DNA from: Bryoerythrophyllum caledonicum
Lineage: Eukaryota > Streptophyta > Bryopsida > Pottiales > Pottiaceae
Direction of reading: 5' to 3'
Assembly: GCA_963971425.1 (NCBI GenBank)
Contig: OZ020519.1
Span: 21,287,397-21,351,396 of the forward strand
Length of the DNA: 64,000 nucleotides
Shown here: piece by piece, positions 665 through 63,666 of the stretch
Numbering within the stretch: position 1 is the first letter of the stretch
How the letters are laid out: the number at the start of each line of letters is the position of its first letter
Made by a program: the position numbers and the translations under genes
The notes under the pieces: generated by a model
Databases searched by the model: none
What the model saw: only the letters and a program-made list of their open reading frames with translations
What the model was told of the DNA's origin: nothing

Positions 665-678
665 CCGGAGATCTCCGG
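665..678. repeat. 14-bp palindrome CCGGAGATCTCCGG (exact), intron 2 of copy A gene
   Basis: Exact copy of the dispersed palindrome, lying in the relic of intron 2. The orthologous site in copy B is 55,686-55,699, also exact. Confidence 0.97.
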
Positions 679-2242
679 ATGATTGGTTTGGTTGTTGTGA
701 GGATAGAGCACATCCACGGAATTAAAATCTATTCAGGTTCAGAATGTATGCTTTCCGAGAATGCGTCAGATTGAGGACGACCATATAGTTGGGGGGCTGG
801 TTTTCCGAACTCAAACCACTTCACTCTGCACGTCTGCAGGTGCTCAATGAAACTCTGCTCCTTCCGCAGACCCGTCAGATCTTGGTTAAGAGCGGGCAAG
901 AGTTGTAGCACGGTCATGTCTTTGGGGTCCGGTTTGTCCTAACCGGGATGATAGAAAAGTGGGAGATCTCTTCGAGCGTCCACGTTGCAGGCAATTCGTG
1001 TGACAAAACCTTGTGCACCGCCACAGTATGCTGACCTCCGATAATGTAAAAGTGTGTCGAGTCCCTCAGGCAGTCCTCCTTCGTCGGCTTGGTCGCGAAA
1101 AACTCCACCTTACTTCCTTCAGATTTCTTCTTCAGTGGCAAGACTCGAATGTGAATCTCAGGTGCCGTGGCCTTTATAGATGCGCGAACTGCGTTGATAA
1201 TTCCTTCAAGCCGTTCTTTCTGGATGCCCTTGTATACTAATCCTCCAGGGGGGGCCCGGTGCAGCTTATTGAAATGAACGAGCTTCAAGACATCCTTCTT
1301 CGTGTCAGGGTCTTCTACAGTCAAAGGCTTATTATTGTGTATTTAAACATTTTTGAACGCGTCATCGAGAACCTTGCCAATTGCTTCCACTTTTGTCTGC
1401 TTCATTTTGGTGAGGTCAGCCTGTGTGAAGTTCAGGCACCTTTCGATCGCGAGGCCAGGCTCATCGGCCTTCGCTTTCTTCCCCTTCTCCGCCCGCGATG
1501 AGGAACCTGGGGTCGAAGTCTTCAAGGTGGTCTTGCGTTTTCTTGCCAAAGTTGATGCTGGTGTCAGAGACAGATTGGGAGTTGCCTCAGGAACGGGCAT
1601 TCAGGACTTCTCTTGTGCTTCAGCCATCCACTTCCACTGCTCATTAATGTACTCCGAAAACCACGTATCACCTGTTGGAGGGGCAAATAAAAAGTTCTCA
1701 CTCTGGCAGGTCTCCACCATCGCATCTGAAATCTTAGATGATTCTAGGATCAAGCCGTATATGTGTGGCTCGGTGGAGGAGTCCACGTTCTCCTGGACGA
1801 TAACGAGACTGACCTCGTCATCAAGACCCTGCAACTCGAAAACCTGGAGACCAATGTCGGGGTGACCCCGTTTGCCAATCCGAAGCTGAGGGACGAATTC
1901 CCAGGCACGGTCAGGGGTTTTAATGAGCTTGATGCCCCACTCGGATATGCTCTTTCGGCATATGTATACGTAGCCGACATTGTGTATCTCTCTGTAGACA
2001 AACTCAGAGAGCCAATACTCTACAAATGCCCCAAGTTTCCTGGGTCGACATTCAGTCGGAAGTGTGGATGTCCACGAATCCCTGCAAGATGATTTTGAAA
2101 GAACACGCAGGCAGTTTAGAATCACTGCAATTGTCTGGTCAGTAACGGGAATCCGAAAGTAAATCACCTGACTTATTTCTAGATGTTGAATCCATGAATC
2201 GTGCTTCCAAATCTGTATCACAGTGCCAGCAAGGGACAGTAC

Positions 2243-2558
2243 CCGGAGATCTCCGACTGATTTGGGGAAGTCGAGTGCATCCGACAAGGAACGAATCCTG
2301 GCTGCTCTGACGGATCCATTTCTGACCTGAACCGATGATCTCCGGTTAATGACCCCTAAGTGGAGGTTCTCGATATTCAAATGTCCATTAACGCGAACCT
2401 CCACTGTTTCGATACGTCCGGAGATCTCCGGCTGCTTTCGAGAATAACTAACGCCTGTGTAGGGTTTACATATTCATCTGACCGCTACATCATCCGGAGA
2501 TCTCCGGGTGATTACTGGAACTCCGTATTCATTTTGGGATATAGCCGGAGATCTCCGG
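2243..2558. repeat. Cluster of five palindromes in intron 1 of copy A gene
   Basis: Members are 2243-2256 (one mismatch), 2332-2345 (two mismatches), and 2418-2431, 2494-2507 and 2545-2558 (all exact). All five match positions in copy B (57,266, 57,355, 57,410, 57,486, 57,527) and lie inside intron 1. The first two are intact in B, whereas the last is intact in A and damaged in B. Confidence 0.95.
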
Positions 2559-3173
2559 CTGACGCACGTACGGCTCTTCATAGCACTAATCGGATCATAT
2601 CATCACTCGAATATTTACATTCATTTACAGAGAGGTTTGACGTATAACTCTTGAAGTTTGACATACTTAAATAGCAAGTTACATAATTGAGAACATAAAT
2701 ATATGTATCAAAACAGCTCACACAATTCTGTTATAACTCGACCTTACACACAAGAAGAATAATCCGCTAATGTTACGATGGAACGCCAAATTTGACGACT
2801 CTACATGGATTACACTATATACATTGAATCGAACTAGACTCGACAGACTCAGTGAAGACAAACACATTCAAACATTCTTGGAATTCCAAAATCATTCGCA
2901 TATTCATGAATAGATATACAATTATGTTCACGGGACAACAAAAAACCAATCGACTATAGCCAAACAGACATCTGAATTCTAGTATGCAATTTCTGAGGTT
3001 TTTCTAAATCATTCAAGTGTTCGTCCACTCCGTAATAATAGAACTAATTCGGAACTCACTCAAAAAAAGGACCCCACCCAGTTGCTCGGACTGAGCATAA
3101 ACAGTTCGATTATGTAGACTTACCGGTTTCCATCCCACGCAGTCTCACTCGACGTCCCTGCTGTAGTCGCCAT

Positions 3174-4215
3174 TTTCCAATCTCCTCCAAGAACTGCTCT
3201 GGATTAAAGCGTATACACAACTCTGCAGTACATCAGCATTCAACAACTCAGAACGACAAACTATACAATTACTCAAATGCCCTAGAATGTTAGGTCCAGT
3301 TCTGACTGACAAGAATTCGGCAGAGTATATTTCAACAGTGCATAAATTGCTCAATTACGGCCCTTCGAAACTGAATGCACAAAACACCACAACCCTAAAC
3401 CCTAAACCCTTCTATTACGCTCAAACGATTAACAACATCAGTACTATTCGACTCTCTCAAACCCTAATGAAGCTTACCAAACCCTACACCTGCTCCAGTG
3501 ACGATTCTAAGAAGTCCTGTGCAAATTCAACTGAAATTACACTGAAAGCCATTTTTGAGACTTTACATACCTCTTCACTTGCTGAATCGGCGCACCCGTA
3601 CATCGTGGTTGTTCGTGTTGACGCCACCCTCAACCGCAGCGTCGTTCACTCTTGGCTGCTGAACCTAGGTGCTCTTCAAATTTCTTCCTAATGCATTCGC
3701 TCTCTTTCAGTCCTACTCTCTGACCTTCAGTCTATATCCAATTAACAACCTTTCCACGGTACGCTCAATGTCCCTCACATAAATCAACACTCACCTCGCA
3801 CACCAACGGCCTCTCACAGCGCATACGAAACTAACCTAATGCGTCGACGCCGACTCCGCAAACCAAGAAAGAAAACCCCTCCCGCCACTTCCGCTCACTA
3901 CCTTCGACATTATGAAGACAAAACCCAAAAAAAACAAGAAATGGTTCATTCTTGGAGTTCCCAAAATCCAAAGAGGACTAGCTGGACGGCTTAAGGGTGT
4001 GACGGCTCATGATGACAGTGGGTGAAGTTAAAAATCAGCTGAAATGACGTACATGTACAACGAGTCCATTTCACAATCATGACATTGTCAATGTCGTGAG
4101 CATGCGTGACAAGACGTATTGATACCCGGTTTCATGGGTATTAGATATGACTATAATAGATACTCGGGTTCACCGGATATTAGAGTAATTATTATACTTG
4201 AATTTAAAACGACAT
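3174..4215. other. Upstream region of copy A ParB-like gene
   Basis: This matches 58,155-59,200 of copy B. It should hold the promoter and 5' leader of the minus-strand gene that starts at 3173. A 134-codon plus-strand reading frame (3287-3691) is open in both copies. The A/B differences in it are mostly amino-acid changing, so I do not regard it as coding. A short telomere-like run (two to three CCCTAAA units) lies at about 3390-3412. Confidence 0.5.
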
Positions 4216-4219
4216 TAGT

Positions 4220-5070
4220 GGAAAATCTTAATCTCCCTTTCCGTTACTCTCCCTCCCTTCTTTCCCTCACTTATTTTTCTTATTTTTCTTATTTTTGTTC
4301 TACTCTCCCCTCCTTCACAATCTCCATCTCTTCTTTAATCTTGATTCTAATATTTTTTAGACTCCTCGTGATTTCAATACTTACACATTCTATAATTAAC
4401 TTACTACTCTAAAAAAATCCCTTACTCTCCCTATTTTACTCTTCCTCTCCCTTACTCTCCCTCCCCATCTTTTTTTTACATTTGATTTTCTTTTTAGATT
4501 CCCCTTATTACATATTCTAAAAATATAAACTACTCTAAAAATAAATCCCTCAAGTCTCTCTCTCTCTTACTCTCCTTTATGTCCCTTCTTTACTCTCCCT
4601 CCTACTTGTTTTTTACTTATTTTAGTTTTACTCTCCCCTCCTTCTCCATCTCCATCTCTATTTTATTTCTGAATTTTTAAATTTTTGGATTTCTCCTTAT
4701 TTCAATAAATTCACATTCTAAAAATAATTAACTACTCTTTAAAACAATCCCGCACTCTTCCTTGCTTACTCTCCCTATCCCTTACTCTCCCTCCCTTACT
4801 CTCCCTCTCTTCCTTACTCTCCCTCTCCATCTCTTTTTTACATTTGATTTTCTTTTTAGATTCCTCTTATTACATATTCTAAAAATATAAACTACTCTAA
4901 AAATAAATCCCTCAAGTCTCTCCCTCTCTTACTCTCCCTCCCTTACTCTCCCTCATACTTGTTTATTTATTTATTTTAGTTTTACTCTCCCCTCTTTCTC
5001 AATCTCCATCCTTAATTAATAATATTGAACTATTGTAATAGTATTTTTTTTCTATCCCATTCTATTACAT
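4220..5070. repeat. CT-rich degenerate tandem array (TTACTCTCCCTCC-type units)
   Basis: Long pyrimidine-rich stretch with recurring 'cttactctccctcc', 'ctccatctccatctc' and 'tacatttgattttctttttagattc' blocks. These recur at about 360-bp spacing (for example 4,470 and 4,845), which indicates higher-order tandem duplication. The same array with a different internal duplication is present in copy B (59,205-60,090). Confidence 0.85.
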
Positions 5071-5487
5071 TATTCAAATTAATGCATAGGTTTCAAAGAT
5101 ATATTCATATTTTATGTAGATTGTTGTTACTTTTTTTCTCAAATACTTTGTGATATAAAAACTACATGAAAATGGTTGATTTAATGCGTTGCAAACCAAG
5201 CGCCAACTCCTAGTCAACTCTAAAATTAAATCCATTACCCTCCTTCTCTTCTTTATTCTCTCTCTAAATAAATTATAATGTATCAAAATAAATAGTTATT
5301 GTTCAATTCTTGCTAAATTTCCTTACACTCTATAATATCCAGGTTTGTTTTAAAAGTTATGGTTATCGTTAAACTTAAGGTTATAGTTCATAGTTATAAA
5401 ATAATTTTAATTTATACATTTATAGGTGATATAAGCCCTCAACCTTCATGAACTCAGACCCCTCCACGGTGAACCGTGAACCCTGAA

Positions 5488-5605
5488 TCCTTAATCCTAA
5501 ACCCTAAACCGTGAACTAGGAACCGTGAACCCTAAACCCTAAACCCTAAACATAAAACCCTAAACCCTAAACCCTAAATCCCTAAATCCTAAATCCTAAA
5601 ACCCT
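5488..5605. repeat. Interstitial telomere-like repeats (CCCTAAA)n
   Basis: Runs of CCCTAAA, the plant telomere unit read on the C-rich strand, alternate with 'accgtgaac' spacers and degenerate units (CCTAAAT, CCTAAAA). The equivalent array of copy B is at 60,735-60,879 with a different unit arrangement. Confidence 0.93.
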
Positions 5606-5699
5606 GATGCACAATCCAGCCTGAACACGGAAGCTGTACCCGAATTCACAGGACTAGGTTGTTGTACTTCTAAAAGCATCTGCTCAGTTATTTATCTAG

Positions 5700-12622: not shown

Positions 12623-13891
12623 TATTGCCTGATGAACAGTACTAGAACGCAACAAAGGGCCGTCTCTTTTCCTTGGGTAGGGTAAAATTTAATTCACAAA
12701 AGTGAGTATGAGAAGTCCAGTACGATTACATTTTTACTGTGATTTAGTCTAAGACGTGATACGGCCCTAGTATATTCAAAGATACATCATGGGGCATACT
12801 TCATCATCCGTTTTCAAATTTGCAGCACTCTGGGAACTAGATGATATCCTTACAATACGGTTATCCCAAGAGTACGAGCCTTTCATTATCATGAGTGGAA
12901 TGTGGCCTCGATCGTGGGCACGTCGAAGAATGCGCACAATCATGATGGTGTACAGCAGTTAGTTTGAAGGAGCATGCATGCCCAAGATTCGTTTCAAATT
13001 TCAGCGCCTGAATTTTCCCTCCATGAGGTGATGGAAAGGTGGATAAGAGTATCCTTCAACTCAGCTCTCATCTTTTTTTGCTCTGGAGGTTTGAGATACT
13101 GTGGGAGCTGAGCAAGTCGATGAGAGTGTTCGCGTGCACGACAATTTGAATTTGTTCGCGGGAAACGAATCGACATTATTCCAGGAATGTTAAGTATGTT
13201 TCCTCGTATAATTCCGTATTTGCTATCTATCTTTGAGGATTGGTGAAGATTGTGTTGCATTCTGTCCTCTGAGTCGATCGGGAGCTCTCGTGTAGTGATT
13301 CTGTATCTAATTCGTCTCCGAAGATATAGTCATAGCCCTGAAGCACTAATTTAATTCGACTCGAGTATATAGATGACGTATTTGCTTGGCGTGTGAATCC
13401 GAACTGTTAACCGGGTTTTGCAACTGTATCACACCGCCATACCCGCGAATATTCTGTACGGTTGTTGTTTCGATCAAGAAAAATAAATTCAACCGGAGAT
13501 CTCCGAATGTTCATGCCGTGCTATTCTGGATTCTGCCAATCTCGCCTGATAACCGCGGTTTCACCCCTTGATTCCAGTGGCTGTCAGAATCATTGAAAGC
13601 AGGATTCCCGGAGATCTCCGGCTACTTCTGTTTTGTGTAAAATGTTCATTGAAAGTCTCCTCCCCAGCCTAGTTCTGATTAACCAGAGATCCCGGTTAGG
13701 TACGACTGGAACTTTAAGCTCCACCTTTCTCCCGCTTAATCAAACAAGAAGTCGTCGTTGTTGATCATTCTCCACTCTGCCAGTGATCTCCGGCTAGCTC
13801 AACCGATGATATTGAAGTTGGTCATCCAGATTGACTCTACATGCACACAATTTCTTATTGAGGACATTAGCCACCAACCGAGCATCCACCA
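12623..13891. other. 5' flank of the transposase-like gene, copy A
   Basis: Closely matches copy B 61,073-62,248. It carries no reading frame conserved between the copies. Its last 400 bp hold the palindrome cluster described separately. Copy A has about 95 bp (about 13,637-13,735) that B lacks, with a degenerate palindrome-like sequence near 13,683. Confidence 0.6.
13493..13793. repeat. Palindrome cluster upstream of the copy A transposase-like gene
   Basis: 13,493-13,506 (one mismatch), 13,608-13,621 (exact) and 13,780-13,793 (degenerate) correspond to three exact copies in B at 61,941, 62,056 and 62,137. A further eroded relative lies at about 13,683 and has no counterpart in B. Confidence 0.92.
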
Positions 13892-14304
13892 ATGCAACAC
13901 GAGATTATGTCTGACTCAGATTGGTGGGAGAGTGACTCGGAAGACCTTGCCATGGTCGCAGCTCAGTGCCCCGGTTTTGGACATGTGAATTACACGGAAG
14001 AAGATGATCCATCCCAAGAGTCTACTAGAAGATCGGAGGTTCTGTGGTCAAGAATGTCCGTGAACCTTATGAGGCTAGGTTCAGGCGAAATTGGAGAAGC
14101 ATCCATTGTTGAGGTTCACCCCATGGATCAATGGCTTGGAGTTGACATACCAGTCGGATCCAGTGAGTTCGTATTACTTAGACCAACGGCCATATGCTCC
14201 GCAGTGGAAGAATTACCACTCATTCCTTTGCAACGCGGATACGATTCACTTGTTCACACTCCGGCGGACCGTTTTATGGAGAAGGGCGGATGTCATGATT
14301 CCAA

Positions 14305-14318
14305 CCGGAGATCTCCGG
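14305..14318. repeat. Exact palindrome inside coding exon (copy A)
   Basis: One of only two exact copies that lie in coding sequence (the other is its counterpart at 62,664 in B). Read in the gene frame it encodes part of T-G-D-L-R-S. Confidence 0.95.
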
Positions 14319-15285
14319 TCCGACGAGTCCCCATTCGTACCACGAGAGCGATGGATTGGACTTGAAGTCCAGCGGTTGGACGCAGATGGGTTGGTGCTCT
14401 ACCCTGGGAGAATCATGGCCGCTTTCCCAGCAGATCATTTCCGAAGTGGATGTTTGGGAGAAGATAATATTGGTGTAACTGTCCTTGATGTTTTTGTGGG
14501 AGACACGGAGAGAATTATGAGTCATGAGTCGTGGCCCATTCTTGAATGTTGTTTTCCTTCCGGTCGGTCTTTGAAAAGCACAATTGATCATTTCGCATCC
14601 CTGCCTTTACAACCTGATTCTGGTGCTCATTTGGGGGGTCGTGCGAAGGAGCCATACCGCTTCATTACCCGACAGCAAGACCTTAACAAGAAGGAATCCT
14701 TGTACACCAAGAGGACTACCGACGACGAAATTCGCAAAGTCAGCTCGGAAAAGTGCTGTCCCAAACGATGCTGCCAGTATTTTCATCAATCCCAGACTCT
14801 TTCGGTTAGACAGAAATTCTATGACAAATCCTTTGAAGATAGAAAGGAGTATGCGATCTCGGTAGGCGGGCAGTTCCACTCCATTGATGGGGACTGGAAG
14901 AGAAAGTACGTCACGCTTTTGGGAACGGAGGTCTGCTCCGTTGCATGGTACACAATCCATGGAATTCGAAAGTCCACGTTTCACACGTACATCGGCCATT
15001 TCAGTAGAGGAGTCATTAATGCAACTCACGGTAACAAGGGCATCAAGCGCCCACGGCTTGCCAATATACAGGCGATGGGCTCAATGACGTCGATTATTAA
15101 TGACAACGCGGATCAAATGCCTCACCAAATGCGGAGTGTCGGGAATGGTCGGATTGACATTCTCAAGTATCTTCCTGCGGGAAACAACTGGAAGCAAATT
15201 CGAGCCAGCGTCAATGATGTACGTTATCAGTCCCCGCATATTGCAATGGATTTGTACTCTCCTTGCTCCGTCGACCGATGTCCAA

Positions 15286-15423
15286 GTATGTGAACCGGAG
15301 ATCTCCAGCTGGGTCATCGTTGAGATGCATTGACCTTCAATTGATTAACTCTGTACTTCGCACCGTCTGTTGGATTGTACTTCTAAATTTTTCCTCTCAC
15401 TAGGTTAATTTTTCATTTTGCAG
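15286..15423 (+). other. Intron of transposase-like gene with degenerate palindrome
   Basis: The pyrimidine-rich 3' end and 'ttttgcag' at 15,416-15,423 mark the acceptor; the coding frame resumes directly after it. A palindrome relic (15,295-15,308, one mismatch) lies near the 5' end. In copy B the intronic copy is exact (63,653-63,666). Confidence 0.65.
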
Positions 15424-18231: not shown

Positions 18232-18234
18232 ATT

Positions 18235-18242
18235 GTATAAGA
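18235..18242 (+). promoter_or_regulatory. TATA-like box before the acidic ORF
   Basis: TATAAGAG lies about 90 bp upstream of the ATG at 18,328, a normal distance for a plant core promoter plus leader. This rests on sequence and spacing alone. Confidence 0.4.
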
Positions 18243-18327
18243 GAGGGTTCAGGACTGCAACAATCCATATGTTTTGTCTTTCAGCCGTAAGTCTTGTTAG
18301 GCCATAGCCACGGTGGAGAGAGAGGAG

Positions 18328-18765: not shown

Positions 18766-18951
18766 AGCTCTTTAGAGAGGTAGTGCAAGGATAAAATTTG
18801 TTGTTAGATCCAGGAATTTTGCTGAGACCAGTCACTGCTTTTTCCTACATTTGGTCTTGTATCAAACACTTTTGTAAAGAGATTTCATTCGAGAGTAGCA
18901 TTGTCGTTTTTGAACAACCGAGCAATTATTTTTTTAGTACTTTGCTTTCGA

Positions 18952-19202
18952 CTGGATATCTCCGGATGTCTGAACGGCATTCCTTACATGTCAATGCTTC
19001 AAGCTCTGAAATGCACTGTACTCATCTTCTACACGATATTACCACAGAAATGTACAGTATACCATATAACATGGTAGTTTTATAAACGTGTTAGCTTGAA
19101 AAATGTTATCATTTTGTCGATCACGACGAACGAAATTTCACGCTTGTTTTATCACTATATTCGATTCGTAATGTATCACTGAAACCATCCGGAGATATCC
19201 GG
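18952..19202. repeat. Two degenerate palindromes near the right edge of copy A
   Basis: 18,952-18,965 (two changes) and 19,189-19,202 (CCGGAGATATCCGG, one change). The latter is the last palindrome before Gypsy-1 sequence and the rightmost trace of copy A that I can see. Confidence 0.85.
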
Positions 19203-45787: not shown

Positions 45788-45789
45788 AA

Positions 45790-50054: not shown

Positions 50055-50975
50055 GTTACCATTGGCCAGGGGGGTACTCCGTCTAGATCTACGTATCAGG
50101 CTTTTTCCTATCTTGGAGGAAAACTCCGGCCTTGACCGGAATCCAGTTTAAAATAGATCCTTCCATGACCTAGAGATTACCAGGAATACCTCTGCAGTTC
50201 ATCTCTTTCCCTCCTGACTACTTCCGGACCTTGGAGACTACCAAGAATACCTCTGCAATAGCCCTCCAACTCTCCCAGGCGATCTCCTGACACAGATCCT
50301 GACCGATTTTCCTCTAGCAAAACAAGTGTATCACTCCACTCCGGAAGAATACTACAGAACCATACACACAAGAATGGATTTGTCGCTCACGGAGTTCCAC
50401 ACGTCACAGCAGGAGTACTAGGGAGCAAGTCTTAGTACGAAGGAGCAACGTATATTTCTAGGTGAGAAGAACAAGATGAAAGGTTTTTCCCCAAAATCTC
50501 ACTACTAAGTACTAATTAAGTCCCTTCTAAACTTAGCTTTCCTCCTAGCTACCCCTACGGAAAATCCGCTAGATCTTATCTAAAAGATCCAAGAAATCCG
50601 GAAAAGTCCCAGATTGGATCTCAGATCCTATAATCTTGGAACAATTTCCGGCTTTGGAACTCCCATTTTAACTACAAATTCTGGTCGTCGTCTCCGTCAG
50701 CAGCCAGGTGCACTTGGAGTTCCATCGTTAATTGCTGCTGGTCTGGAATCTAGAATGCCCAATTCAACTATTTCTGGACTATAAGGTGAATTCTGGACTA
50801 AGGACTAAAAGAAAGATCCGGAGATGTGCCTCATAAAAGAGAGTGAAGCGTAAAAGCCGAGGAGTTTTGAGTACTTTTCAAGCATTAAATGCATCACCAA
50901 TGACACTTATGAAGGAAGAAATGGCAAGAGCGACCAAATTTGAATTTAGACAATACGTGAGTCCGGAACATGCAG
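50055..50975. other. Unassigned region left of copy B
   Basis: No gene is recognised. The sequence has purine/pyrimidine-rich blocks ('aatacctctgca' repeated at 50,182 and 50,246) and a short worn frame from ATG 50,373. A single CCGGAGATG near 50,818 hints that copy B may start around 50,815, but I see no terminal repeat. Confidence 0.4.
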
Positions 50976-51161
50976 CCGGATATCTCCGGGTGAATATCAA
51001 AGTAGAAACCAGAAGAAGAACCGAGTCCTGAAAACAGAAATTAATGGACATACTGTACATCACAAATGTGTGGTTGGGAAACATGTGGTAGGAAAAAATG
51101 GGACAGAGATGCGGACAAAAATTACTCGCAATTGATAGAACATGCAACCGGATATCTCCGG
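50976..51161. repeat. Two palindrome variants CCGGATATCTCCGG
   Basis: 50,976-50,989 and 51,148-51,161 share the same one-base change and the same downstream GTGAA context, so they look like duplicates of each other. They are the leftmost members in copy B. Confidence 0.92.
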
Positions 51162-51277
51162 GTGAAATCAGAGTAAGAGTCCAGTACTAAACTGTTTCAT
51201 TATAAGAAAGTGTCATACAAAATATAAAGGGTAGCCGTTGATAAGAGGCGCGTGTAATCTACAGAGAATCGATTCAA

Positions 51278-51754
51278 CTATTCTAATTTTAGTGCTTTAC
51301 AGATGCCCTCTACCCGTCCTGTATGGTGTCTCCCATATGTTAGATAATGAACTATAGCCTTTCTAGGATTCTTGAATGGATCTAGATCTGCAACAACAAC
51401 AGATTTAGGCCACAAATAATGCCTTGTTCTAGGATTAAATGAGGCCTTCTTAAAGATGTGGAGAAACCTAACATAGCTAGGCCTTCGAGTCTGTTTGCTG
51501 GCATAGCAAAAAAGAATATCTGATAAGATGTCTAGGGGCAATAACACTCGGGCCACCTCCATGAGCCTATCTGGACGCATAGGAGACCAGATCCCGACAT
51601 TGAAATACCGCAGTAGTATTCGAATAACATCTGCGGTGTCATCAAAGGAAGGCAGCTGCGCGGATCGGGACTTGGCCGAGTCAAGGACCTCGTCCGAGCA
51701 GAGAGGACCACGGAGAGATATGATTATGACCTTCGAAATAGATGGCACGACCAT
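51278..51754 (-). CDS. FCP1/HAD-like protein, catalytically impaired (HAD2)
   Basis: ATG 51,754 to stop 51,278, 158 residues. The pattern follows the HAD fold of FCP1-type phosphatases: a hydrophobic strand (KVIIISLRGPLC) where active enzymes have DxDG, then GIWSPM (normally WS/TSS), and VVADLDPFKNPRKAIVH matching the LLVDDSPxKN box. The nucleophile Asp of motif I is gone, so it cannot act as a phosphatase. The frame is open further upstream to 51,943, but a palindrome at 51,822 and poor similarity there favour the downstream ATG. It lies on the same strand as HAD1 and the ParB-like gene and may be a final exon or a duplicate. Confidence 0.6.
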   Translation of the reverse strand: MVVPSISKVIIISLRGPLCSDEVLDSAKSRSAQLPSFDDTADVIRILLRYFNVGIWSPMRPDRLMEVARVLLPLDILSDILFCYASKQTRRPSYVRFLHIFKKASFNPRTRHYLWPKSVVVADLDPFKNPRKAIVHYLTYGRHHTGRVEGICKALKLE

Positions 51755-51821
51755 AGAATTAGAAATTGAACATTGAAAAGAAGAGAAAATATGGTAGGAG
51801 GAACTGAAGTCACATCCTAGA

Positions 51822-51835
51822 CCGGAGATCTTCGG
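51822..51835. repeat. Palindrome, one mismatch, upstream of HAD2
   Basis: CCGGAGATCTTCGG, about 70 bp upstream of the HAD2 ATG. Confidence 0.9.
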
Positions 51836-52082
51836 GTGCCCCTCCCAGACCAACGTTCTGCAGTGGAAATGGTCAGGAGAATACTCAATAGAGTTCACAG
51901 ATATTAAGGGTGAAGTTTGGGGGCGAGACACCAACAATAACAAATAAAATGAAGGACCTCAACAAATAACGTTACTGACAAGAACATTTGTCTTCAAAAT
52001 TGAAAGGTCAAAATCCGACAGACATTCATGACGAAACATTTACAAAGCATAGAGTTAATACTATCCAGTATATTTCATTGTT

Positions 52083-52756
52083 CTAAGGCGCCGAAATTAT
52101 GCCCTTCACCACGGAGCGAGCCTGAGTGGAATTTTTGTCTACTGGATCATTGGCAAACTTCAATTGATTCCGTCTAACAAAGTCGGGAACATCCTCATTT
52201 GACGCTAGTAGTCCGGAAAGCCATGGGAGAAACATGGTGGTCAACCAGGCTTCACCCGAATTCCCAGTCCATGATGGCGGATGAACTGCGCTGAAGGGAT
52301 CGTTAAGGATGTTCTTTAGTGGGGTATCGTCGACAAGCAAGACATCCTTAGGAGATGTGGGCGATGCTTTGCTATTATAAACTGTCAGGTCCTTTAGGAA
52401 AATTGGCTTCTTTGGCTGAGATGGAAGCATATATGATATTTTTGTGCAATCGGCCTGTGTCAGGATTCTGGCGCCTTCCGGAATGGTAGCACCTTTCTTG
52501 CGCAACTCCTTGATGATATCCACAATATTCTTTTCTAGTACACTGCTCCAGAATGAGACAGTAGCCTTCTCTCCCACGAAGTTCAGGATTTCAGTGGAAC
52601 CAGACCTTACTTTGATGTCTCTCGGTTGTCCCTGTTTAAATTCCCCCCTGTGCACAAGAACTCCATTTAAGTCAAACACGACATGATAAACCCGTTGTTG
52701 TGTTACCTGATCCTCGATTGGAGGCTCTCGGACGATCGTCGTAAACTTCTTCAGAC
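52083..52756 (-). CDS. FCP1-like HAD domain exon (HAD1)
   Basis: An open frame begins at a splice acceptor (TTCAG before 52,756) with no ATG near its start, and ends at TAG 52,083. Motif I reads VVFDLNGVL: the nucleophile Asp is present but the second Asp (general acid/base) is Asn. WSS and LLVDDTPLKN supply the later HAD motifs. FCP1-like proteins dephosphorylate phosphoserine, for example on the RNA polymerase II tail; plant relatives with DLNG exist and their activity is uncertain. The exon needs one base from an upstream exon. A CAG|GTGCC donor at 52,926/52,925, just before the stop of the ParB-like gene, would supply the right phase, making this the C-terminus of that protein. Otherwise an unseen short exon precedes it. 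Confidence 0.72.
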
Positions 52757-52917
52757 CTGAACCCAAAATACGAGTACATTGACTGAGATGAGGAACTTGT
52801 ACAGCTTAGAGAAATTGCAAAGATACATATAAAAGTGTTCCGCACTCACAATCCAGAAATGCTCGATGGAAGAATGAACACTATATAGATGATGGCACGT
52901 AAGTATGAATGTCCATA

Positions 52918-55900
52918 TTAGGCACCTGGGACAGTAGGTGTAGTATCCCTAGAAGTCTGAGCTACACCAGCGACTTCAGCAGTCTGTGCGAGGCTTCTGC
53001 CACCGACATCCTTCGACTGTGTTGATCCGGCCGACACCTGAATACCAGTAATGTAGTGGTAAGAACACGGTCTGCAGAGAGTGCACTGTCTTGAGAACAA
53101 TCAAGAAGGTTTGATGGACAAGTAACTGTTCACCTTATCTTTCTGGGCCCTTGTCCGAACTGTAGGCGGAGGAGGAGGAACTTTCGGCACAGGATTCTTC
53201 GCGATTGCCTTCTTCTTCTCTTTTTGAGCCAGCTGCCCGTGGCTCCGTGGAGGGCTGCGCGGAGGGCTCATAACATGTAATTCACGCAATGTTTGTTGCG
53301 CCGATGCCTCATCCATCGTGTGATCAGTGTCACGCAAAGTCAGGTCCTCGGCAGTCTTGGACACAACCTCCACTTTAGGACGCGTCGTGGAAGGGTTGTC
53401 CAGCAGGAGATCTCCGGGTGCTCTGTGGGTGTCGTCGAACTCCAGGCGATCGGACATTGCCGTGTCATCGTCCAGATCTGGCGGAGGAGAACGTTGCCTA
53501 TCGGAATGCGAACTGGTTTCCATTTGAAAGGGACGCCGTCTACCGTCCAGAGTAGAGTCGCTTGTTGAACTAGGCGAGGCACGCCTGACAGCAAGATGTG
53601 GTTCATCAACGTTTACCTGCAATGGGTCGATTGGGGTGCCCGCACCGATGATCCGAGCGGCTGTAGCCAAGGAATCGAGTCTAAAATTGGGAACCGCTGA
53701 TGAACTTGGTTCATTCCGCACATCAATATCAAGCATCGTGGCATCAGTCGTCTGCGTCACATTGACGAAGTCAGTGTGGAATACATTAAGACGCAATACG
53801 AATTAAAACGGTATCATACACCCGGAGATCTCCGGTTCAAAGTTGTCCGAGTCTACCGGGGGAACTAAAAATAAACATGGCAATGATAAAGACGAGTCCT
53901 AAAGAATGGAGGGCATCCGAATGGAATAAACATCCGGAGATCTCCGGGTCAGGTAGTATCCGTAGGCGTTATACCTCGCCGGTGTAATTCATCCTCGACA
54001 TAGCCCGTGTTTGAACCCCAGCGCCTTGGGTCGACCCAGTGATGTCAGTCTCCAGTAACTCCTCAGGATCGGCGTCGGTAACGTCAGCTAAGATATTCAA
54101 GTGGAATTTGAATATTTGTTCTGCGCAGGATTCGGCATTTACTTTGGCATCTTCGCTATTCACAATCTCGAGGACCCGCGCGTCGTGAGTCTGCAAACCA
54201 AAAAAAAATTAGGACGGCGATATCCAATTCATATAACTGTATGCGGACCGGAAATCTTAGACATTGGATTGCTTGGGAAGGATGTCTTGCTTACCAAGCC
54301 GAGGTATGTAATATGTGGTCCTCCATGAACATTGACGACCACCATACCCTCTCTGATGGATCCCGTGAACAGCGAATCGAGGACCGAGATCCTCAGCTGT
54401 GGGACACTGGTTTGCTTCCAGCGCTGGATGGTTTCTTTATGTTGAGCGGCTGAAAAGAAGGCCGGCATTTTTTCGGGGTGGCCTTTGAAGAGCCTCTTGA
54501 ATGATTGAGCAGGCGTCTCGCTTGAATCGTATTCATACAGGAATACGCAGTATACTGTCTCCTCGACCCCAATTACTGGAACCGGAAATCCATCACCAGG
54601 GTGGGGGAAGTAGTAGACGACATGCGTTGCCCACAATTTTACCTTGCCTCTGGACTCTCTCTGCCGAAGACTGATGTACCTCTTTAATTCAACGAATCCT
54701 GCGACGTCAGTGATAAGAACCGACGGTGATTTGACCCTCGTCCGCCCGTCCTTTGTGTCCACTTCGAGATGGTCGAAAATGGTTCTGAAGTCAAACACAT
54801 CTAGCACCTGTGCACGGCATATGTCGTCTTTAATGCGAAAAAGGAAAAAGAAGTAAAAGTGAGGGTCAGTGACGTTACGCCACTGCTGAATGTCCGGCAT
54901 GATAAGTACTTCGGCGATCTCGCCCCCTCTGTCAGGCATAACCCTGCAGGTGTATTTGGAGTCGAACAGGGACATATCATCCGTGGGTGTGGCCTCGGCA
55001 GCATCTTCAATGATGTGTTGACTCCAAATGGACACAAAGAAGTCTGGAGTGGGGTCGGTATCCTTGTTTATCGCCTTCAGTCGACCCTCAAGCCAAGCTT
55101 TACCCTTGGCAGAGTGATTAGCGGCGTCGACCCAGGACTCGAGCTGGACCCTTCCAATATTCCTCTCTTCGGCAAATGCGTCCCACTGCTCCTTCGTGTA
55201 TGGGACGAAGTCAGCAGACTTCAAGGGAAGGGGGTGCGACTTGTACTTAAGCATCAGTTCATTCTTCATTGCACGGACTCTCTTCTCTCTGTTCGCCGCG
55301 TTTTCGAGAGTCTCCGCCTGCCCTTTCATAGTACCTTGGTTTGCCGCTTTGTAAGACTTCACACAGACCTTCTTCTCGAGCACTAATTCCGCGAGGTAGT
55401 CTAGGTCTTCAGCGCGCATTTTGTAAAGAGGCTTGAAGTCGTTCTGCACTAGAGGTTTCTGCTTCAGCTTAGTTGGGTCCCCCGTCTTCCCGTTGGAGTC
55501 TGGTAAGACTCCAGCGACGAACAGCCTCTCGATTCGGATCCACTTCTGGACCACCGCATCATCCCTCTCGAATAGAGGTGGGACCTCTGCGTCTTTGGGG
55601 TCTGTTTTACCGAGGTGTGTAAAAACCGTTGGCACCACTTGCCGTTGGAACGTCTGCAATGAAAACAATTACAGGGTGTAAGCAGCCGGAGATCTCCGGA
55701 TGATTGGTTTGGTTGCTGTGAGGATAGAGCACATCCACGGAATAAAAAATATTTTCAGGTTGAGAATGTATATTTACCGAGAATGCGTCAGATTGAGGAC
55801 GACCATACAGTTGGGGGGTTGGTTTACCGAACTCAAACCACTTCACTCTGCACGTCTGCAGCTGCTCAGTGAAACTCTGCTCCTTCCGCAAACCCGTCAG

Positions 55901-58154
55901 ATCTTGGTTAAGAGCGCGCGAGAGCTGTAGCAGGGTCATGTCTTTGGGGTCCGGTTTTGTCCAAACCGGGATGATAGAGAAGTGGGAGATCTCTTCGAGC
56001 GTCCACGTTGCTTGCAATTCGTGTGACAGAACCTTGTGCGCCGCCACAGTATGCTGACCTCTGATAATGTAAAAGTGTGTCGAGTCCCTCAGGCAGCCCT
56101 CCTTCGTCGGTTTGGTCGCGAAAAACTCTACCTTACTTCCTTCAGGTTTCTTCTTCAGTGGCAGGACTCGAATGTGAATCTCAGGTGCCGTGGCCTTCGA
56201 AGACGCGCGAACTGCGTTGATAATTCCTTCAAGCCGTTCATTCTGGATGCCCCTGTATACTAATCCTCCAGGGGGGGCCCGGTGCAGCTTATCGAAATGA
56301 ACGAGCTTCACGACATCTTTCTTCGTGTCAGGGTCTTCTACTGTCAAAGGCTTATTATTGTGTATGTAAACGTTTTTGAACGCGTCGTCGAGTACCTTAC
56401 CAATTGCTTCCACTTCAGTCCGCTTCATTTTTGTGAGGTCAGCCTGTGTGAAGTTCAGGCACCTTTCGATTGCGAGGCCTGGCTCATCGGCCTTCACTTT
56501 CTTCCCCTTCTCCGCCCACGATGAAGAACCTGGGGTCAAAGTCTTCAAGGTGGTCTTGCGTTTTCTTGCCAACGTCGATGCTGGTGTCAGAGACAGATTG
56601 GGAGTTGCGTCTGGAATGGGCATTCGGGACTTCTCTTGTGCTTCAGCCATCCACTTCCACTGCTCATTCACGTACTCCGGATACCACGTATCACCCGTTG
56701 GAGGGGCAAATAAAAAGTTCTCACTCTGGCAGGTCTCCACCATCTCATCCGAAATCTTAGATGATTCTAGAATCAAGCCGTATATATGTGGCTCGGTGGA
56801 GGAGTCCACGTTCTCCTGGACGATAACGAGACTGACCTCGTCATCAAGACCCTGCAACTCGAGAACCTGGAGACCAATGTCGGGGTGACCCCGTTTGCCA
56901 ATCTGAAGCTGAGGGACGAATTCCCAGGCACCGTCAGGGGTTTTAATGAGCTTGATGCCCCACTGGGTTATGTTCTTTCGGCAATTGTATACGTAGCCGA
57001 CATTGTGTATCCCTCTATAGACAAACTCAGGGAGCCAATACTCTACAAATGCCCCAAGTTTCCTGGGTCGACATTCAGTCGGAAGTGTGGTTGTCCACGA
57101 ATCCCTGCAAGATGATTTTGAAAGAACAAGCAGGCAGTTTAGAATCGATGCAATTGTCTGGTCAATAACAAGAATCCGAAACAAAATCACCTGACAAGTT
57201 CCTAGATGTTGAAACCATGAATCATGCTTCCAAATCTGTATCACAGTGCCAGTAGGGGACAGTACCCGGAGATCTCCGGCTGATTTGGGGAAGTCGAGTG
57301 CATCCGACAAGGAACGAATCCTGGCTGCTCTGACGGGTCTATTTCTGACCTGAACCGGAGATCTCCGGTTAATGACCCCTCAACGCGAATTTCCATTGTT
57401 TCGATACGTCCGGAGATCTCCGGCTGCTTTCGAGAATAACTAACGCCTGTATAGGGTTTACATATTCATCTGATCGCTACATCATCCGGAGATCTCCGGC
57501 TGATTACTGGAACTCCGTATTTTCAGCCGGAGATCTCGGGCAGAAGCACGTACGGCACTTCGAAGCACTAATCGGATCATATCAGGACTCGAATATTTAC
57601 ATTCATTTACAGAGAGGTTTGACGTATAACTCTTGAAGTTTGACATACTTAAATAACAATTACATAATCGAGAACATAAATATATGTATCAAATGAGCTC
57701 ACACAATTCTGTTATAACTCGACCTTACACACTAGAAGAAGAATCTGCTAATGTTTCGATGGAACGCCAAATTTGACGACTCTACATGGATTACACTATA
57801 TACATTGAATCGAACCAGACTCGACAGACTCAGTGAGGAACAACACATTCAAACATTCATGGAATTCCAAAATCATTCGCATATTCATGAATAGATATAC
57901 AAATATCTTCACGGGACAACAAAAAACCAATCGACTATAGCCAAACAGACATCGGAATTCTAGTATGCATTTTTTGAGGTTTTTCAAAATCATTCAAGTG
58001 TTCGTCCACTCCGAAATAATAGAACTAATTCGGAACTCACCAAAAAAAGGAACCCCACCTAGTCGCCCGGACTGAGCATAAACAGTTCAATTGTGTATAC
58101 TTACCGGTTTCCATCCCACGCAGTCTCACTCCACGTCCCTGCTGTAGTCGCCAT
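52918..58154 (-). CDS. Six-exon gene with ParB/sulfiredoxin-like domain (about 1229 aa)
   Basis: Exons on the minus strand: 58,154-58,105 (ATG, MATTAG), 57,104-55,778, 55,653-54,295, 54,190-53,975, 53,751-53,134 and 53,037-52,918 (TAA). All junctions are GT-AG. Introns 2-5 are phase 0; intron 1 is phase 2 on both sides, so the frame stays open. Residues ~295-375 follow the ParB/Srx N-domain: HFDKLHRAPPGGL, a helix with RLEGIINAVRAS, IHIRVLPL, then FYIIRGQHTVAAHK, where ParB has a G-x-H/R-R motif. This fold binds or hydrolyses nucleotides in ParB and is catalytic in sulfiredoxin. A basic, Ser/Thr-rich linker precedes it. Exons 3-4 form an unrecognised domain (about 525 aa); exon 5 is disordered and Pro-rich (MSPPRSPPRS). 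Copy A is broken, this copy is open throughout. The domain call is by eye. Confidence 0.75.
53404..53417. repeat. Degenerate palindrome in exon 5
   Basis: GCAGGAGATCTCCGG-like. This is the only member located in an exon of the ParB-like gene, and its left arm is worn. Confidence 0.7.
53822..53947. repeat. Two exact palindromes in intron 4 of the ParB-like gene
   Basis: 53,822-53,835 and 53,934-53,947, both exact, inside the 223-nt intron 53,752-53,974. Confidence 0.97.
55686..55699. repeat. Exact palindrome in intron 2 of the ParB-like gene
   Basis: Lies inside intron 55,654-55,777 and matches copy A 665-678. Confidence 0.97.
57266..57540. repeat. Cluster of five palindromes in intron 1 of the ParB-like gene
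   Basis: 57,266-57,279, 57,355-57,368, 57,410-57,423 and 57,486-57,499 are exact; 57,527-57,540 is worn. All lie in the 1000-nt intron 57,105-58,104 at about 40-90-bp spacing. Confidence 0.97.
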
Positions 58155-59200
58155 TTCGCAATCTCCTCTCGTAACTGCTCTGGATTAAAGCGTATACAAA
58201 ACTCTGCAGTACATAAGCATTCAACAACTCAGAACGACAAACTATACAATCTCTCAAATGCCCTAGAATGTATGGTCCAGTTCTGACATACAGGAATTCG
58301 GTGGAACAAATTTCAACACTGCATAAATTGCTCAATTACAGCCCTTCGAAACTGAATGCACAGAAAACTAGAACCCTAAACCCTAAACCCTTCTATTTCG
58401 CTCAAACGATTATCAACATCAGTACTATTCGACTCTCTCGAACCCTAATGAAGCTTACCGAACCCTACACCTGCTCCAGTGACGATTCTATGAAGTCCTG
58501 TGCAAATTCAACTGAAATTTCACTGAAAGCCATTTTTGAGACTTTACATACTTCTTCACTTGCCGAATTGGCGCACCCGTACGTTGTGGTCGTTCGTGTT
58601 GACGCCACCCTCAACCGCAACGTCGTTCACTCTTGGCTGCTGAACCTAGGCGCTCTTCAAATTTCTTCCTAACGCATTCGCTCTCTTTCAGTCCTACTCT
58701 CTGACCTTCAGTCCATATCCAGTTAACAACCTCTCCACGGCACGCTCAATGTCCCTCACATAAATCAACACTCACCTCGCACACCAACGGCCTCTCACAG
58801 CGCATACAAAACTAACCTAATGCGTCGACGCCGACTCCGCAAACCAAGAAAGAAAACCCCTCCCGCCACTTCCGCTCACTACCTTCGACATTACGAAGAC
58901 AAAAGCCAAAAAAATCAAGAAATGGTTCATTCTTGGAGTTCCCAAAACCCAAAGAGGACAAGCTAGACGGCTCAAGGGTGTGACGGCTCATGATGACAGT
59001 GGGTGAAGTTAAAAATCAGCTGAAATGACGTACATGTACAACGTGTCCATTTCACAATCATGACATTGTCAATGTCGTGAGCATGCGTGAGAAGACGTAT
59101 TGATACCCGGTTTCATGGGTATTAGATATGACTATAATAGATACTCGGGTTCACCGGGTATTAGAGTAATAATTATACTTGAATTTAAAACGACATTAGT
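58155..59200. other. Upstream region of the copy B ParB-like gene
   Basis: Promoter/leader side of the minus-strand gene; matches 3174-4215 of copy A. The 134-codon plus-strand frame at 58,268-58,672 has its counterpart in A but evolves like non-coding DNA. A telomere-like run lies at about 58,375-58,390. Confidence 0.5.
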
Positions 59201-59204
59201 GGAA

Positions 59205-60090
59205 AAGCTGAATCTCCCTTTCCATTACTCTCCCTCCCTTCTTTCCCTCACTTGTTTTTCTTATTTTTGTTCTACTCTCCCCCCCTTCTCCATCTCCATC
59301 TCTTTTTTAATCTTGATTCTAATATTTTTTAGACTCCCCGTGATTTCAATAATTACACATTCTTAAATTAACTTACTACTCTAAAAAAATCCCTTACTCT
59401 TCCCCTCTTACTCTTCCTCTCTCTTACTCTCCCTCCCCATCTCTTTTTTATATTTGATTTTATTTTTAGATTCTCCTTATTACATATTCTAAAAATATAA
59501 ACCACTCTAAAAGTAAAACCCTCAAGTCTCTCTCTCTCTTACTCTCCCTCCCTTACTCTCCCTCCTACATGTTTATTTATTTATTTTAGTTTTACTCTCC
59601 CCTCCTTCTCAATCTCCATCCTTAGTTAATAATATTGAACTATTGTAATAGTATTTTTTAACTATCCTATTCTTTCCCTCACTTGTTTTTCTTATTTTTG
59701 TTTTACTCTCCCCTCCTTCTCCATCTCCATCTCTTTTTTAATCTTGATTCTAATATTTTTTAGACTCCTCGTGATTTCAATTCTTACACATTCTATAATT
59801 AACTTACTACTCTAAAAGAATCCCTTACTCTCCCTATTTTCCTCTTCCTCGCCCTTATTCTCCCTCCCCATCTCTTTTTTACATTTGATTTTCTTTTTAG
59901 ATTCCCCTTAACCCATATTCTAAAAATATAAACTACTCTAAAAATAAATCCCTCAAGTCTCTCCCTCCCTCCCTAACTCTCCCTCATACTTGTTTATTTA
60001 TTTATTTTAGTTTTACTCTCCCTATTTTATCTCAATCTCCATCCTTAGTTAATAATATTGAACTATTGTAATAGTATTTTTTTTTCTATC
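59205..60090. repeat. CT-rich tandem array of copy B, with a 431-bp duplication
   Basis: Same composition as 4220-5070. A unit starting 'ctttccctcacttg' at 59,241 starts again at 59,672, giving two diverged tandem units of about 0.4 kb. Confidence 0.85.
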
Positions 60091-60734
60091 CCATTCTATT
60101 ACATTATTCAAATTAATGCATAGGTTTCAAAGATATATTCATATTTTATGTAGATTGTTGTTACCTTTTTTCTTAAATACTTTGTGATATAAAAAATACA
60201 TGAAAATGGTTGATTTAATGTGTTGCAAACCAAGAGCCAACTCCTAGTCATACTACTAAAATCATAATTTGCGCAGTAAACCACGGAGTGAACTATCACA
60301 TAGTCAACCATGCAGTGAACTACAAAAACGCTACAATCAAGTGCGTTGTCAACAATATAGTGAACCATTCCACCTTTTACTTTTTAATACTTTTTAATAT
60401 TATAAATACATAAAAATGGTTGTGCTAATGCATTGCAAAGCAAGCGCCAACAGCTAGTCTACTCTAAAATTAAATCCATTACCCTCCTTCTCTTCTTTAT
60501 TCTCTCTCTAACTAAATTATAATGTATCAAAATAAATAGTTATTGTTCAATTCTCGCTAAATTTCCTTATACTCTATAGTATCCAGGTTTTTTTTAAAAG
60601 TTATGGTTATGGATAAACTTAAGGTTATAGGTCATAGTTATAAAATATTTTCAATTTATACATTTATAGGTGATATAAGCCCTCAACCTTCATGAACTCA
60701 GACCCCTCCACGGTGAACCGTGAGCCCTGAATCC

Positions 60735-60879
60735 TTAACCCTAAACCCTAAAACCGTGAACTAGAAACCGTGAACCCTAAACCCTACACCGTGAAAACCA
60801 TGAACCCTAAAACCTAAAACCTAAACCCTAAACCCTAAACCCTAAACCGGACACATTAAACCCTAAACCCTAAAACCCT
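60735..60879. repeat. Interstitial telomere-like repeats (CCCTAAA)n, copy B
   Basis: CCCTAAA units mixed with 'accgtgaa' spacers. Counterpart of 5488-5605, with different unit numbers. Confidence 0.93.
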
Positions 60880-62248
60880 GATGCACAATCCAGCCTGAAC
60901 ACGGAAGCTGTACCCGAATTCATAGGACCGGGTTGCTGTACTTCTAAAAGCATCTGCTCAGTTATTTGTGCACGTTTCTTCTCAAGCATCCATATAACTT
61001 CTGTCGAACTAGGCAATATTGGAGATTATTCTAATTGGTAACGAACGCCGATGTTCTACTTGAGTCTTGTATTGCCTGATGAACAATACTAGTAGGCAGC
61101 AGAGGGCCGTCTCCTTTCCTTGGGTAGGGTATAATTTAATTAACAAAGGTGAGTACGAGAAGTCCTATACGATTACATTTTACTGTGATTTAGTCTAAGA
61201 CGTGCTACGGCCCTAGTATATTCAAAGATACATCATGGGGCATACTTCATCATCCGTTTTCAAATTTGCAGCACTCTGGGAACTAGATGGTATCCTTACA
61301 ATACGGTTATCCCAAGAGTACGAGCCTTTCATTATCATGAGTGGAATGTGGCCTCGGTCGTGGGCACGTCGAAGAATGCGCACAATCATGATGGTGTACA
61401 GCAGTTAGTTTGAAGGAGCATGCATGCCCAAGATTCGTTTCAAATTTGAGCGCCTGAATTTTCCCTCCATGAGGTGATGGAAAGGTGGATAAGAGTATCC
61501 TTCAACTCAGCTCTCATCTTTTTTTGCTCTGGAGGTTTGAGATACTGTGGGAGCTGAGCGAGTCAGTGACAGTGTTCGCTTCCACGACATCGTGCTAGAT
61601 AACTGTAGGGAAACGAATCGACATTATTCCAGGAATGTTTAGTATGTTCCCTCGTATAATTCCGTATTTGCTGTCTGTCTGTGAGGATTGGTGAAGATTG
61701 TGTTGCATTCTGTCTTCTGAGTCGATCGGGAGCTCTCAAGTAGAGATTTTTAAACTAATTCGTCTCCGAAGATACAGTCATAGCCCTGAAGCAGTAAATA
61801 TATTCGACTCGAGTATATAGATGACGTAAATGCTTGGCGTGTGAATCCGAACTGTTAACCGGGTTTTGCAACTGTATCACACCGCCATACCCGCGAATAT
61901 TCCGTACGGCTGTTGATTCCATCAAGGCCAAAAAACTCAACCGGAGATCTCCGGCTGTTCATGCCGTGCTATTCTGGATTCTGTCAATCTCGCCCGGTAA
62001 CCACGGTTTCACCCCTTGATTCCAGTGGCTGTCAGAATCATCGAAAGCAGGATTCCCGGAGATCTCCGGCTACGTTTGTTTTGTTCTTTCTCTAAATCAA
62101 ACAAGAAGTCCTCGTTGTTGATCATTCTCCACTCTGCCGGAGATCTCCGGCTATCCCTGACGAGGATATTGAGGTTGGTCATCCAAATCGACTCTACATA
62201 CACACAATTTCTCATTCAGGACATTAGCCACCAACCAAGATTCCACCG
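60880..62248. other. 5' flank of the copy B transposase-like gene
   Basis: Intact version of the region disrupted in A by X1; it keeps about 105 bp (60,968-61,072) absent from A. No conserved ORF is present. Together with the CT-rich and telomere-like arrays it forms the 4.1-kb spacer between two divergently oriented genes. Confidence 0.55.
61941..62150. repeat. Three exact palindromes upstream of the transposase-like gene
   Basis: 61,941-61,954, 62,056-62,069 and 62,137-62,150, at 115- and 81-bp intervals, the last 99 bp before the ATG. They may lie in the promoter or in a 5' leader intron. Confidence 0.97.
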
Positions 62249-62663
62249 ATGCAGCACGGGACTATGTCTGACTCAGATTGGTGGGAGAGTGACTCGGAAG
62301 ACCTTGCCATGGTCGCAGCTCAGTGCTCCGATTCTGGACATGTGAATTTCACGGAAGAAGATGATCCATCCCAGGAGTCTACAGCAAGATCGGAGGTCCT
62401 GTGGTCAGGAATGTCCGTGAACCTTATGAGGCCAGGTTCAGGCGAAATTGGAGAAGCGTCCATTGTTGAGGTTCACCCCATGGGTCAATGGCTTGGAGTT
62501 GACATACAAGTCGGATCTAGTGAGTTCGTATTACTTAGACCAACGGCCATATGCCCCGCGGCGGAAGAATTACCACTTATTCCTTTGCAACGCGGATACG
62601 ATTCACTTATTCACACACTCCGGCGGACCGTTTTATGGAGAAGGGCGGATGTCATGATTCCAA

Positions 62664-62677
62664 CCGGAGATCTCCGG
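62664..62677. repeat. Exact palindrome inside coding exon (copy B)
   Basis: Same place as 14,305-14,318 of copy A and equally intact; it encodes part of T-G-D-L-R-S. Confidence 0.96.
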
Positions 62678-63652
62678 TCCGACGAGTCCCCATTCGTACC
62701 ACGAGAGCGATGGATTGGACTTGAAGTGCAGCGGTTGGACGGAGATGGGTTGGTGCTCTGCCCTGGGAGAATCATGGCCGCTTTCCCAGCAGATCATTTC
62801 CGAAGTGGATGTTTGGGAGAAGATAATATTGGTGTAACTGTCCTTGATGTTTTTGTGGGAGACACGGAGAGAATTATGAGTCATGAGTCGTGGCCCATTC
62901 TTGATGTTGTTTTCCTTCCGGTCGTTCTTTGAAATGCACAATTGATCATTTCGCATCCCTGCTCTTACTACCAGATTCTGGCGCTCATTTGGGGGGTCGT
63001 GCGAAGGAGCCATACCGCTTCATTTCCCGACAGCAAGACCTTAACAAGAAGGAATCCTTGTACACCAAGAGGACTACCGACAACGAAATTCGCAAAGTCA
63101 GCTCGGAAAGGTGCTGTCCCAAACGATGCTGCCAGTATTTTCAACAATCCCAGACTCTTTCTATTAGACAGAAATTCTATGACAAATCCTTTGAAGATAG
63201 AAAGGAGTATGCGATCTCGGTAGGTGGGCAGTTCCACTCCATTGATGGGGACCGGAAGAGAAAGTACGTCACGCTCTTGGGAACGGAGGTTTGCTCCGTT
63301 GCATGGTACACGATCCATGGAATTCGGAAGTCCACGTTTCACACGTACATAGCACATTTCAGTAGAGGAATCATTAATGCAACTCACGGTAACAAGGGCA
63401 TCAAGCGCCCACGGCTTGCCACTATACAGGCGATGGGCTCAATGACGTCGATTATTAATGACAACGCGGATCAAATGCCTCACCAAATGCGGAGTGTCGG
63501 GAATGGTCGGATTGACACTCTCAAGTATCTTCCTACGGGAAACAACTGGAAGCAAATTCGAGCCAGCGTCAATGATGTACGTTATCAGTCCCCGCATATT
63601 GCAATGGATTTGTACTCTCCTTGCTCCGTCGACCGATGTCCAAGTATCTTAA

Positions 63653-63666
63653 CCGGAGATCTCCGG
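63653..63666. repeat. Exact palindrome in the intron of the copy B transposase-like gene
   Basis: Lies near the 5' end of the intron whose 3' splice site is at about 63,782. The A counterpart (15,295) has one mismatch. Confidence 0.96.

Follow-up and report, generated by a model that had tools for sequence, protein, structure and literature searches.

In the moss Bryoerythrophyllum caledonicum, a 14-bp perfect palindrome, CCGGAGATCTCCGG, forms a dispersed array in a family of large DNA transposons, and in all places examined the array was restricted to this family. The finding comes from a stretch of 64 kb (the window; C7:21287397-21351396 of a 437-Mb genome of 894 contigs), in which one such family, with a DUF7869 transposase, has inserted twice, as copies A and B. 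The core of the palindrome differed less between element copies than its flanks did, and the sites nearest the element ends carried a variant of their own, CCGGATATCTCCGG. We consider it probable (about 60%) that the palindrome is the docking site of a two-fold symmetric (dimeric) protein that the element itself most likely encodes and that would regulate transcription or silencing and join the element ends.

With a limit of two mismatches, the window contained 33 matches to CCGGAGATCTCCGG (19 exact, 11 with a single mismatch, and 3 with two), compared with a mean of 0.07 and a maximum of 1 in 100 shuffled windows. A first-pass annotation, made from the sequence alone, had counted 19 exact copies, of which A has 7 and B has 12, and this count was reproduced; with near-copies at the same threshold, A held 16 sites and B held 17. 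Its total of about 35 copies stood at 33, because 35 was reached only with two 3-mismatch matches, which is the chance level (about 2 expected in 64 kb by our arithmetic). All 33 matches lay within the limits of A or B given in Table 1 and none in segments X1, X2, Gypsy-1, or Gypsy-2, as the annotation had stated. Among the 14-bp palindromes of the window, CCGGAGATCTCCGG was the commonest with 19 copies, and the runner-up had 2.

Genome-wide, exact CCGGAGATCTCCGG occurred at 2,718 places, compared with 3 for the reversed control. The first 50 of these 2,718, between the start of contig C1 and 6.8 Mb, all fell within four element copies (16 in c1, 16 in c2, 11 in c3, and 7 in c4). Among the matches listed, the motif thus marked blocks of about 15 to 17 kb, not the uniform genome-wide spread that the annotation had named as counting against its proposal. 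The variant CCGGATATCTCCGG occurred 364 times forward and 299 times in reverse, with none for the reversed control. A chance origin of the array was rejected by the shuffles, the genome-wide reversed controls, and the variant counts. Because 2,718 exact places at about 15 per copy and 663 variant places at 3 to 4 per copy give similar figures, the counts suggest 180 to 190 full-copy equivalents in the genome, as an order of magnitude. An Rfam search returned no match. In viral contigs, the 14-mer gave one site per contig among the matches listed, and a 20-mer gave none. No paper on the 14-mer was found in the literature searched (here and below, mostly outside subscription journals), and nothing fitting dispersed palindromes in moss transposons was among the matches listed in that search.

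Comparison of genomic copies showed that the element ends in inverted repeats of about 26 bp (ATGC...TATTTCTGGACT), the left and right repeats agreeing at 22 of 26 positions in copy c1. Five copies fetched whole with both ends present measured 16.9 to 18.6 kb. A 4-bp target duplication was found in six of the seven copies in which both ends were seen (c1, c2, c5, c7, and two others, at C1:8.7 Mb and C1:14.36 Mb; c6 failed). Because the outer flanks differ, with TAGA before B and AATA after A, A and B are two insertions, and a tandem duplication was rejected. Copy A is cut on its left by a long terminal repeat (LTR)-like sequence at 3-542 that matches the Gypsy-2 LTRs. The transposase gene and the remaining genes lie on opposite strands. 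In A, DUF7869 (Pfam PF25273) was recognized with 69.2 and 61.5 bits against a cut-off of 26, in two pieces parted by a stop codon, and several genomic copies retain long open exons. Among the 130 DUF7869 relatives found, the named ones include a protein of Ceratodon purpureus, at 53% identity, and one of Riccia sorocarpa; together with the AAACCCT-type repeats of the window, they point to a bryophyte as the probable source. Searches of viral and prokaryote contigs yielded no relatives, profile searches of solved structures gave no match, and no paper in the literature searched contained the word DUF7869. Sola-type transposons make 4-bp target duplications, and the present element has this duplication and a predicted DDE transposase in common with them. 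Adjoining the right end, at 19300-19334, there is a near-perfect 26-bp palindrome in c1, TTTCTGGACTTTGCAAAGTCCAGAAA; its word TTCTGGACT also occurs at the left end and constitutes a second, terminal class of repeat.

The position of each site was examined in the reference copy c1, from which 23 sites were taken at up to two mismatches. Four of them are subterminal, two at each end. Nine lie upstream of genes (five before the left gene, three before the transposase start, and one before a third minus-strand frame), four are intronic (three in introns of the left gene and one in the transposase intron), and four stand behind the transposase stop codon, one of them decayed. Only 2 of 23 are exonic, a deficit (P = 7e-5) given a coding extent of 8,105 of 16,894 bp, which is our estimate, with intron borders placed by eye. 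The exons flanking the 124-bp left-gene intron (~55654-55777) have homologues on both sides, and the 3' splice site of the transposase intron, TTTTGCAG, precedes a second exon whose start resembles homologue P0001. As for the peptide footprint of the motif in 122 homologues, GDLR was present in 3, within the conserved domain. Of the 23 sites, 17 have the exact core as their majority form, and the four outermost have the variant class CCGGATATCTCCGG; the two left subterminal sites had identical letters in all seven copies. When 30 variant loci were examined, 28 matched element ends, including three that are c1 itself. Within the main family, the association of the variant with the ends is thus strong, though not absolute.

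Conservation was investigated by comparing nine sequences (c1 to c7, A, and B, of which c4, A, and B are partial, so that coverage differs by site), and the figures exclude c1, the reference used to pick sites. Within the 14-bp core, 205 of 6,601 letters differed (3.1%), and in the flanks 4,032 of 50,052 (8.1%); the core was below its flanks at 22 of 23 sites, whereas the three letters on each side of it were no lower than the flanks. The annotation had described arms extending the core as CAN-core-NTG. Such arms exist (over 22 sites, C at 14 and A at 15 on the left, T at 20 and G at 14 on the right), but they are weak and were conserved between copies no better than the flanks. Its TGA to the right of the core did not hold as an asymmetry (flip test, 0.21 over 22 sites), and a strand-oriented motif was rejected because orientation was not significant. 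The core could fold with a GATC tetraloop, and transcription covers many sites in introns and the 3' part, as expected if the site acted as a small hairpin in RNA or single-stranded DNA (a 5- to 8-bp stem with a GATC loop), such as during splicing or in transposition intermediates. However, the outer arms vary freely, no compensatory changes were noted, and transcription need not reach the subterminal and upstream sites; we regard such a hairpin as quite improbable.

In the part common to A and B, 11 of 11 sites lay at the same places, and because A or B (or both) is exact at each, the ancestor was probably exact at all 11. Two more diverged copies, L174-L175 (C1:14917001-14936200) and L153, differ from c1 by about 16 to 20%. 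Among the letters of their aligned sites, 3 of 70 differed in one copy and 0 of 28 in the other, compared with 19.6% and 16.1%, respectively, for the remainder. Upstream parts past the alignment still hold sites: four in 974 bp in d1 and, with a limit of three mismatches, three within 266 bp in L153, the latter with spacing near that of c2. These copies, with sites in nonalignable upstream parts, offer a starting point for a study of site turnover. The core had 40 minority letters, of which 26 were C>T or G>A; the reverse transition did not occur. This excess fits the decay of methylated DNA, although a C/G-rich word would bias the count in the same way.

The view of the first-pass annotation that the motif is dedicated to the large unit was supported. 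Among its three guesses (a binding site, a miniature inverted-repeat transposable element of very small size [micro-MITE], or a recombination or silencing motif), a binding site fits best, given the conserved and symmetric core and the noncoding clusters. A dimeric DNA-binding protein is suggested because the word is symmetric, many copies are exact, conservation covers the 14 bp only and outlasts the surroundings, and the sites stand around transcription units and ends. Its restriction to the family and the variant at the ends point to a binder of the element's own, for which candidates would be the transposase, through its N-terminal part, and the product of a left-hand gene. At the inner sites, which precede the two divergent gene sets, lie within introns, or follow the transposase gene, the bound protein may control transcription or, alternatively, keep silent chromatin from forming on the DNA. 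At the ends, the four outermost CCGGATATCTCCGG sites may help unite the ends for transposition.

Several observations weigh against a dedicated dimeric binder. The copies share ancestry, so that P values overstate independence. When only A and B were compared, the core showed hardly any advantage in conservation (8 of 154 letters differed, against 495 of 7,872 for the remainder, the latter including the motif columns of one segment). The remaining 2 of the 30 variant loci were not at ends but upstream of a gene in diverged copies. The structure model of the left gene failed, with a predicted local distance difference test score (pLDDT) of 32, and neither structure nor homology points to a binder. 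The central noncoding 4 to 5 kb of the element held no site in the window. This last point also bears on the idea that the sites are landmarks of recombination or replication served by no dedicated protein. The central tandem repeats do vary in length among copies, as such landmarks might lead one to expect, but this variable part is the site-free part and the spacing of sites elsewhere is stable between copies, which makes the idea very improbable. The central part (57600-61900 and 2600-5690) lies between the two divergent gene sets, contains a CT-rich minisatellite and AAACCCT-type repeats, and varies in length from copy to copy.

Binding sites of host transcription factors are usually palindromic too, and palindromes are often bound by plant transcription factors. 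Recruitment by the element of sites for a transcription factor or chromatin protein of the host, to drive its own genes, would account for sites that are palindromic, conserved, and clustered upstream of genes. Host genes should then carry some of them, yet the 50 listed exact sites all lie in four element copies; sites also occur in introns, in exons, and behind a gene, and those near the ends have their own variant. A host protein is thus an unlikely binder. An origin of the sites from very small insertions, of a micro-MITE or introner-like kind, spreading in the family ancestor left one weak trace, which likewise counts against our interpretation: at 2 of 23 sites a 22-bp unit is bordered on both sides by the same 5-bp word (P = 0.0135, meaning that random sites give two such matches in 1.35% of trials), and the 22-bp offset had the top mean match of 81 tried (0.38 against a mean of 0.27). 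But the 5-bp repeats are absent at 21 of 23 sites, insertion polymorphism was seen at 0 of the 11 shared A/B sites, the exonic site is gapless against four relatives (P0047, P0062, P0063, and P0065) in a distant alignment, and the arms within the supposed unit are barely common between sites. With the flanks of different sites unrelated as well, the micro-MITE reading of the annotation was not borne out; this origin was mostly rejected and is very improbable.

The annotation's statement that no eukaryotic repeat of this kind has been described was too strong, since passages of one report describe dispersed short motifs of VANDAL transposons bound by the element's own protein (PMC5735166). As described there and in a second report, VANC motifs lie in introns and upstream regions of VANDAL elements of Arabidopsis, are bound by VANC21, and are restricted by family (PMC5735166, PMC10398659). 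The likeness is a short motif present many times in the noncoding parts of one transposon family. However, the VANC21 motif is a nonpalindromic 9-bp word, YAGTATTAY, and sits in tandem repeats whose unit number rises and falls; here the motif is a true palindrome of 14 bp, and flanks of different sites matched at best 12 of 21 letters, ungapped and on one side, so that tandem repeats were rejected as its carriers. The VANDAL transposase is Mutator-like, whereas Pfam gave DUF7869 only for the transposase frames here. The tested left-hand frames gave only an NLI-interacting-factor (NIF) domain in Pfam, and no search was aimed at VANC homologues. In CACTA elements (En/Spm, Tgmt*), TNPA, a DNA-binding protein that the element encodes, binds repeated subterminal motifs needed for excision, according to passages of a further report (PMC2613891). 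The present element resembles these, as described there, in its short motif repeated near both ends (the variant sites) and in being a large, multigene element; in contrast, their motifs are subterminal and most sites here are internal, and their ends are CACTA with a 3-bp duplication instead of ATGC with a 4-bp one. The element thus shares the plan of VANC and TNPA systems, but not the transposase, ends, motif form, or tandem-repeat setting. By analogy, VANC-like anti-silencing, self-regulation, and TNPA-like end recognition may coexist. More tentatively, and with doubt, a DUF7869 lineage of an early-diverging land plant might have evolved VANC-independent anti-silencing or self-regulation, in which one dimeric protein reads the palindrome before, within, and after every gene of the element and a one-letter end variant, read by the same protein or by the transposase, marks ends against interior. 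Few systems of sequence-specific anti-silencing by a transposon's own protein are known. This array offers exact palindromes (about 23 per copy, at some thousands of genomic places), a difference between ends and interior, and survival beyond alignable flanks. Because such sites occur in a plant with many copies, several with long open exons, the binder and its role are directly testable.

Table 1. Coordinates in the window of the element copies, their genes, and the palindrome sites
Feature	Position	Strand	Remarks
Element copy B	50755..64000	+	Starts at left terminal inverted repeat (genomic copies compared); continues past window end
Element copy A, left piece	554..5693	+	Truncated at 554 by LTR-like sequence
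Element copy A, right piece	12623..19329	+	Reaches right terminal inverted repeat; insert X1 parts the pieces
Left terminal inverted repeat of B	50755..50780	+	ATGC...TATTTCTGGACT
Right terminal inverted repeat of A	19304..19329	-	
Left subterminal pair, variant CCGGATATCTCCGG	50976..51161	+	Sites 50976, 51148
Right subterminal pair, same variant class	18952..19202		18952 = CTGGATATCTCCGG; 19189 = CCGGAGATATCCGG, variant on minus strand
Five-site cluster upstream of left gene, B	57266..57540		Sites 57266, 57355, 57410, 57486, 57527
Five-site cluster in A, partly decayed	2243..2558		Counterparts 2243, 2332, 2418, 2494, 2545
Three-site cluster, B	61941..62150		Sites 61941, 62056, 62137; within ~310 bp upstream of transposase start codon ~62245
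Transposase-upstream cluster, A	13493..13793		Sites 13493, 13608, 13780, and decayed 13683
Left-gene intron site, B	55686..55699		In 124-bp intron; A counterpart 665
Left-gene intron pair, B	53822..53947		Sites 53822, 53934; intron ~53757-53986, borders by eye
Transposase-intron site, B	63653..63666		Just within intron; A counterpart 15295
Exonic site	62664..62677	+	Translates T-G-D-L-R; A counterpart 14305; no gap against four relatives
Second exonic site	53404..53417	-	Majority form CGGGAGATCTCCGG; within minus-strand reading frame
Site upstream of third minus-strand frame	51822..51835		First ATG of frame near 51755
Sites behind transposase stop (~17412)	17454..17863		17454, 17661, 17744, and decayed 17850
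Predicted DDE-type transposase gene of A	13889..17412	+	Two exons; DUF7869 domain split by in-frame stop 16180-16182
Transposase gene of B	62245..64000	+	Ended by window border; frame break near 62910 in upstream exon
Left gene of B	54293..57104	-	Exons ~55778-57104 and 54293-55653; two homologues each
NLI-interacting-factor-like phosphatase domain (PF03031)	52083..52805	-	Left gene set; Pfam E value 1.1e-11

The NLI-interacting-factor-like phosphatase domain aboard the transposon is possibly a captured host gene. Also within the element, 3' of the transposase gene at 18415-18762, an open frame encodes a very acidic protein (VEETLNGAASVEEEEEDDPWYEDEEESSSDGG). Outside the element copies, the X1 stretch 5696-8414 and positions 33049-34826 encode similar proteins and represent a further, unnamed repeat family; the protein of 33600-34826, the only one of this type that was run, had no Pfam match. 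In Gypsy-2 (37726-48572), a single long frame (41143-44736, minus strand) runs from a gag/protease-like part to a short part resembling an integrase end, seemingly without reverse transcriptase on reading by eye. The two 2,784-bp LTRs of Gypsy-2 are 99.96% alike, indicating a very recent insertion.

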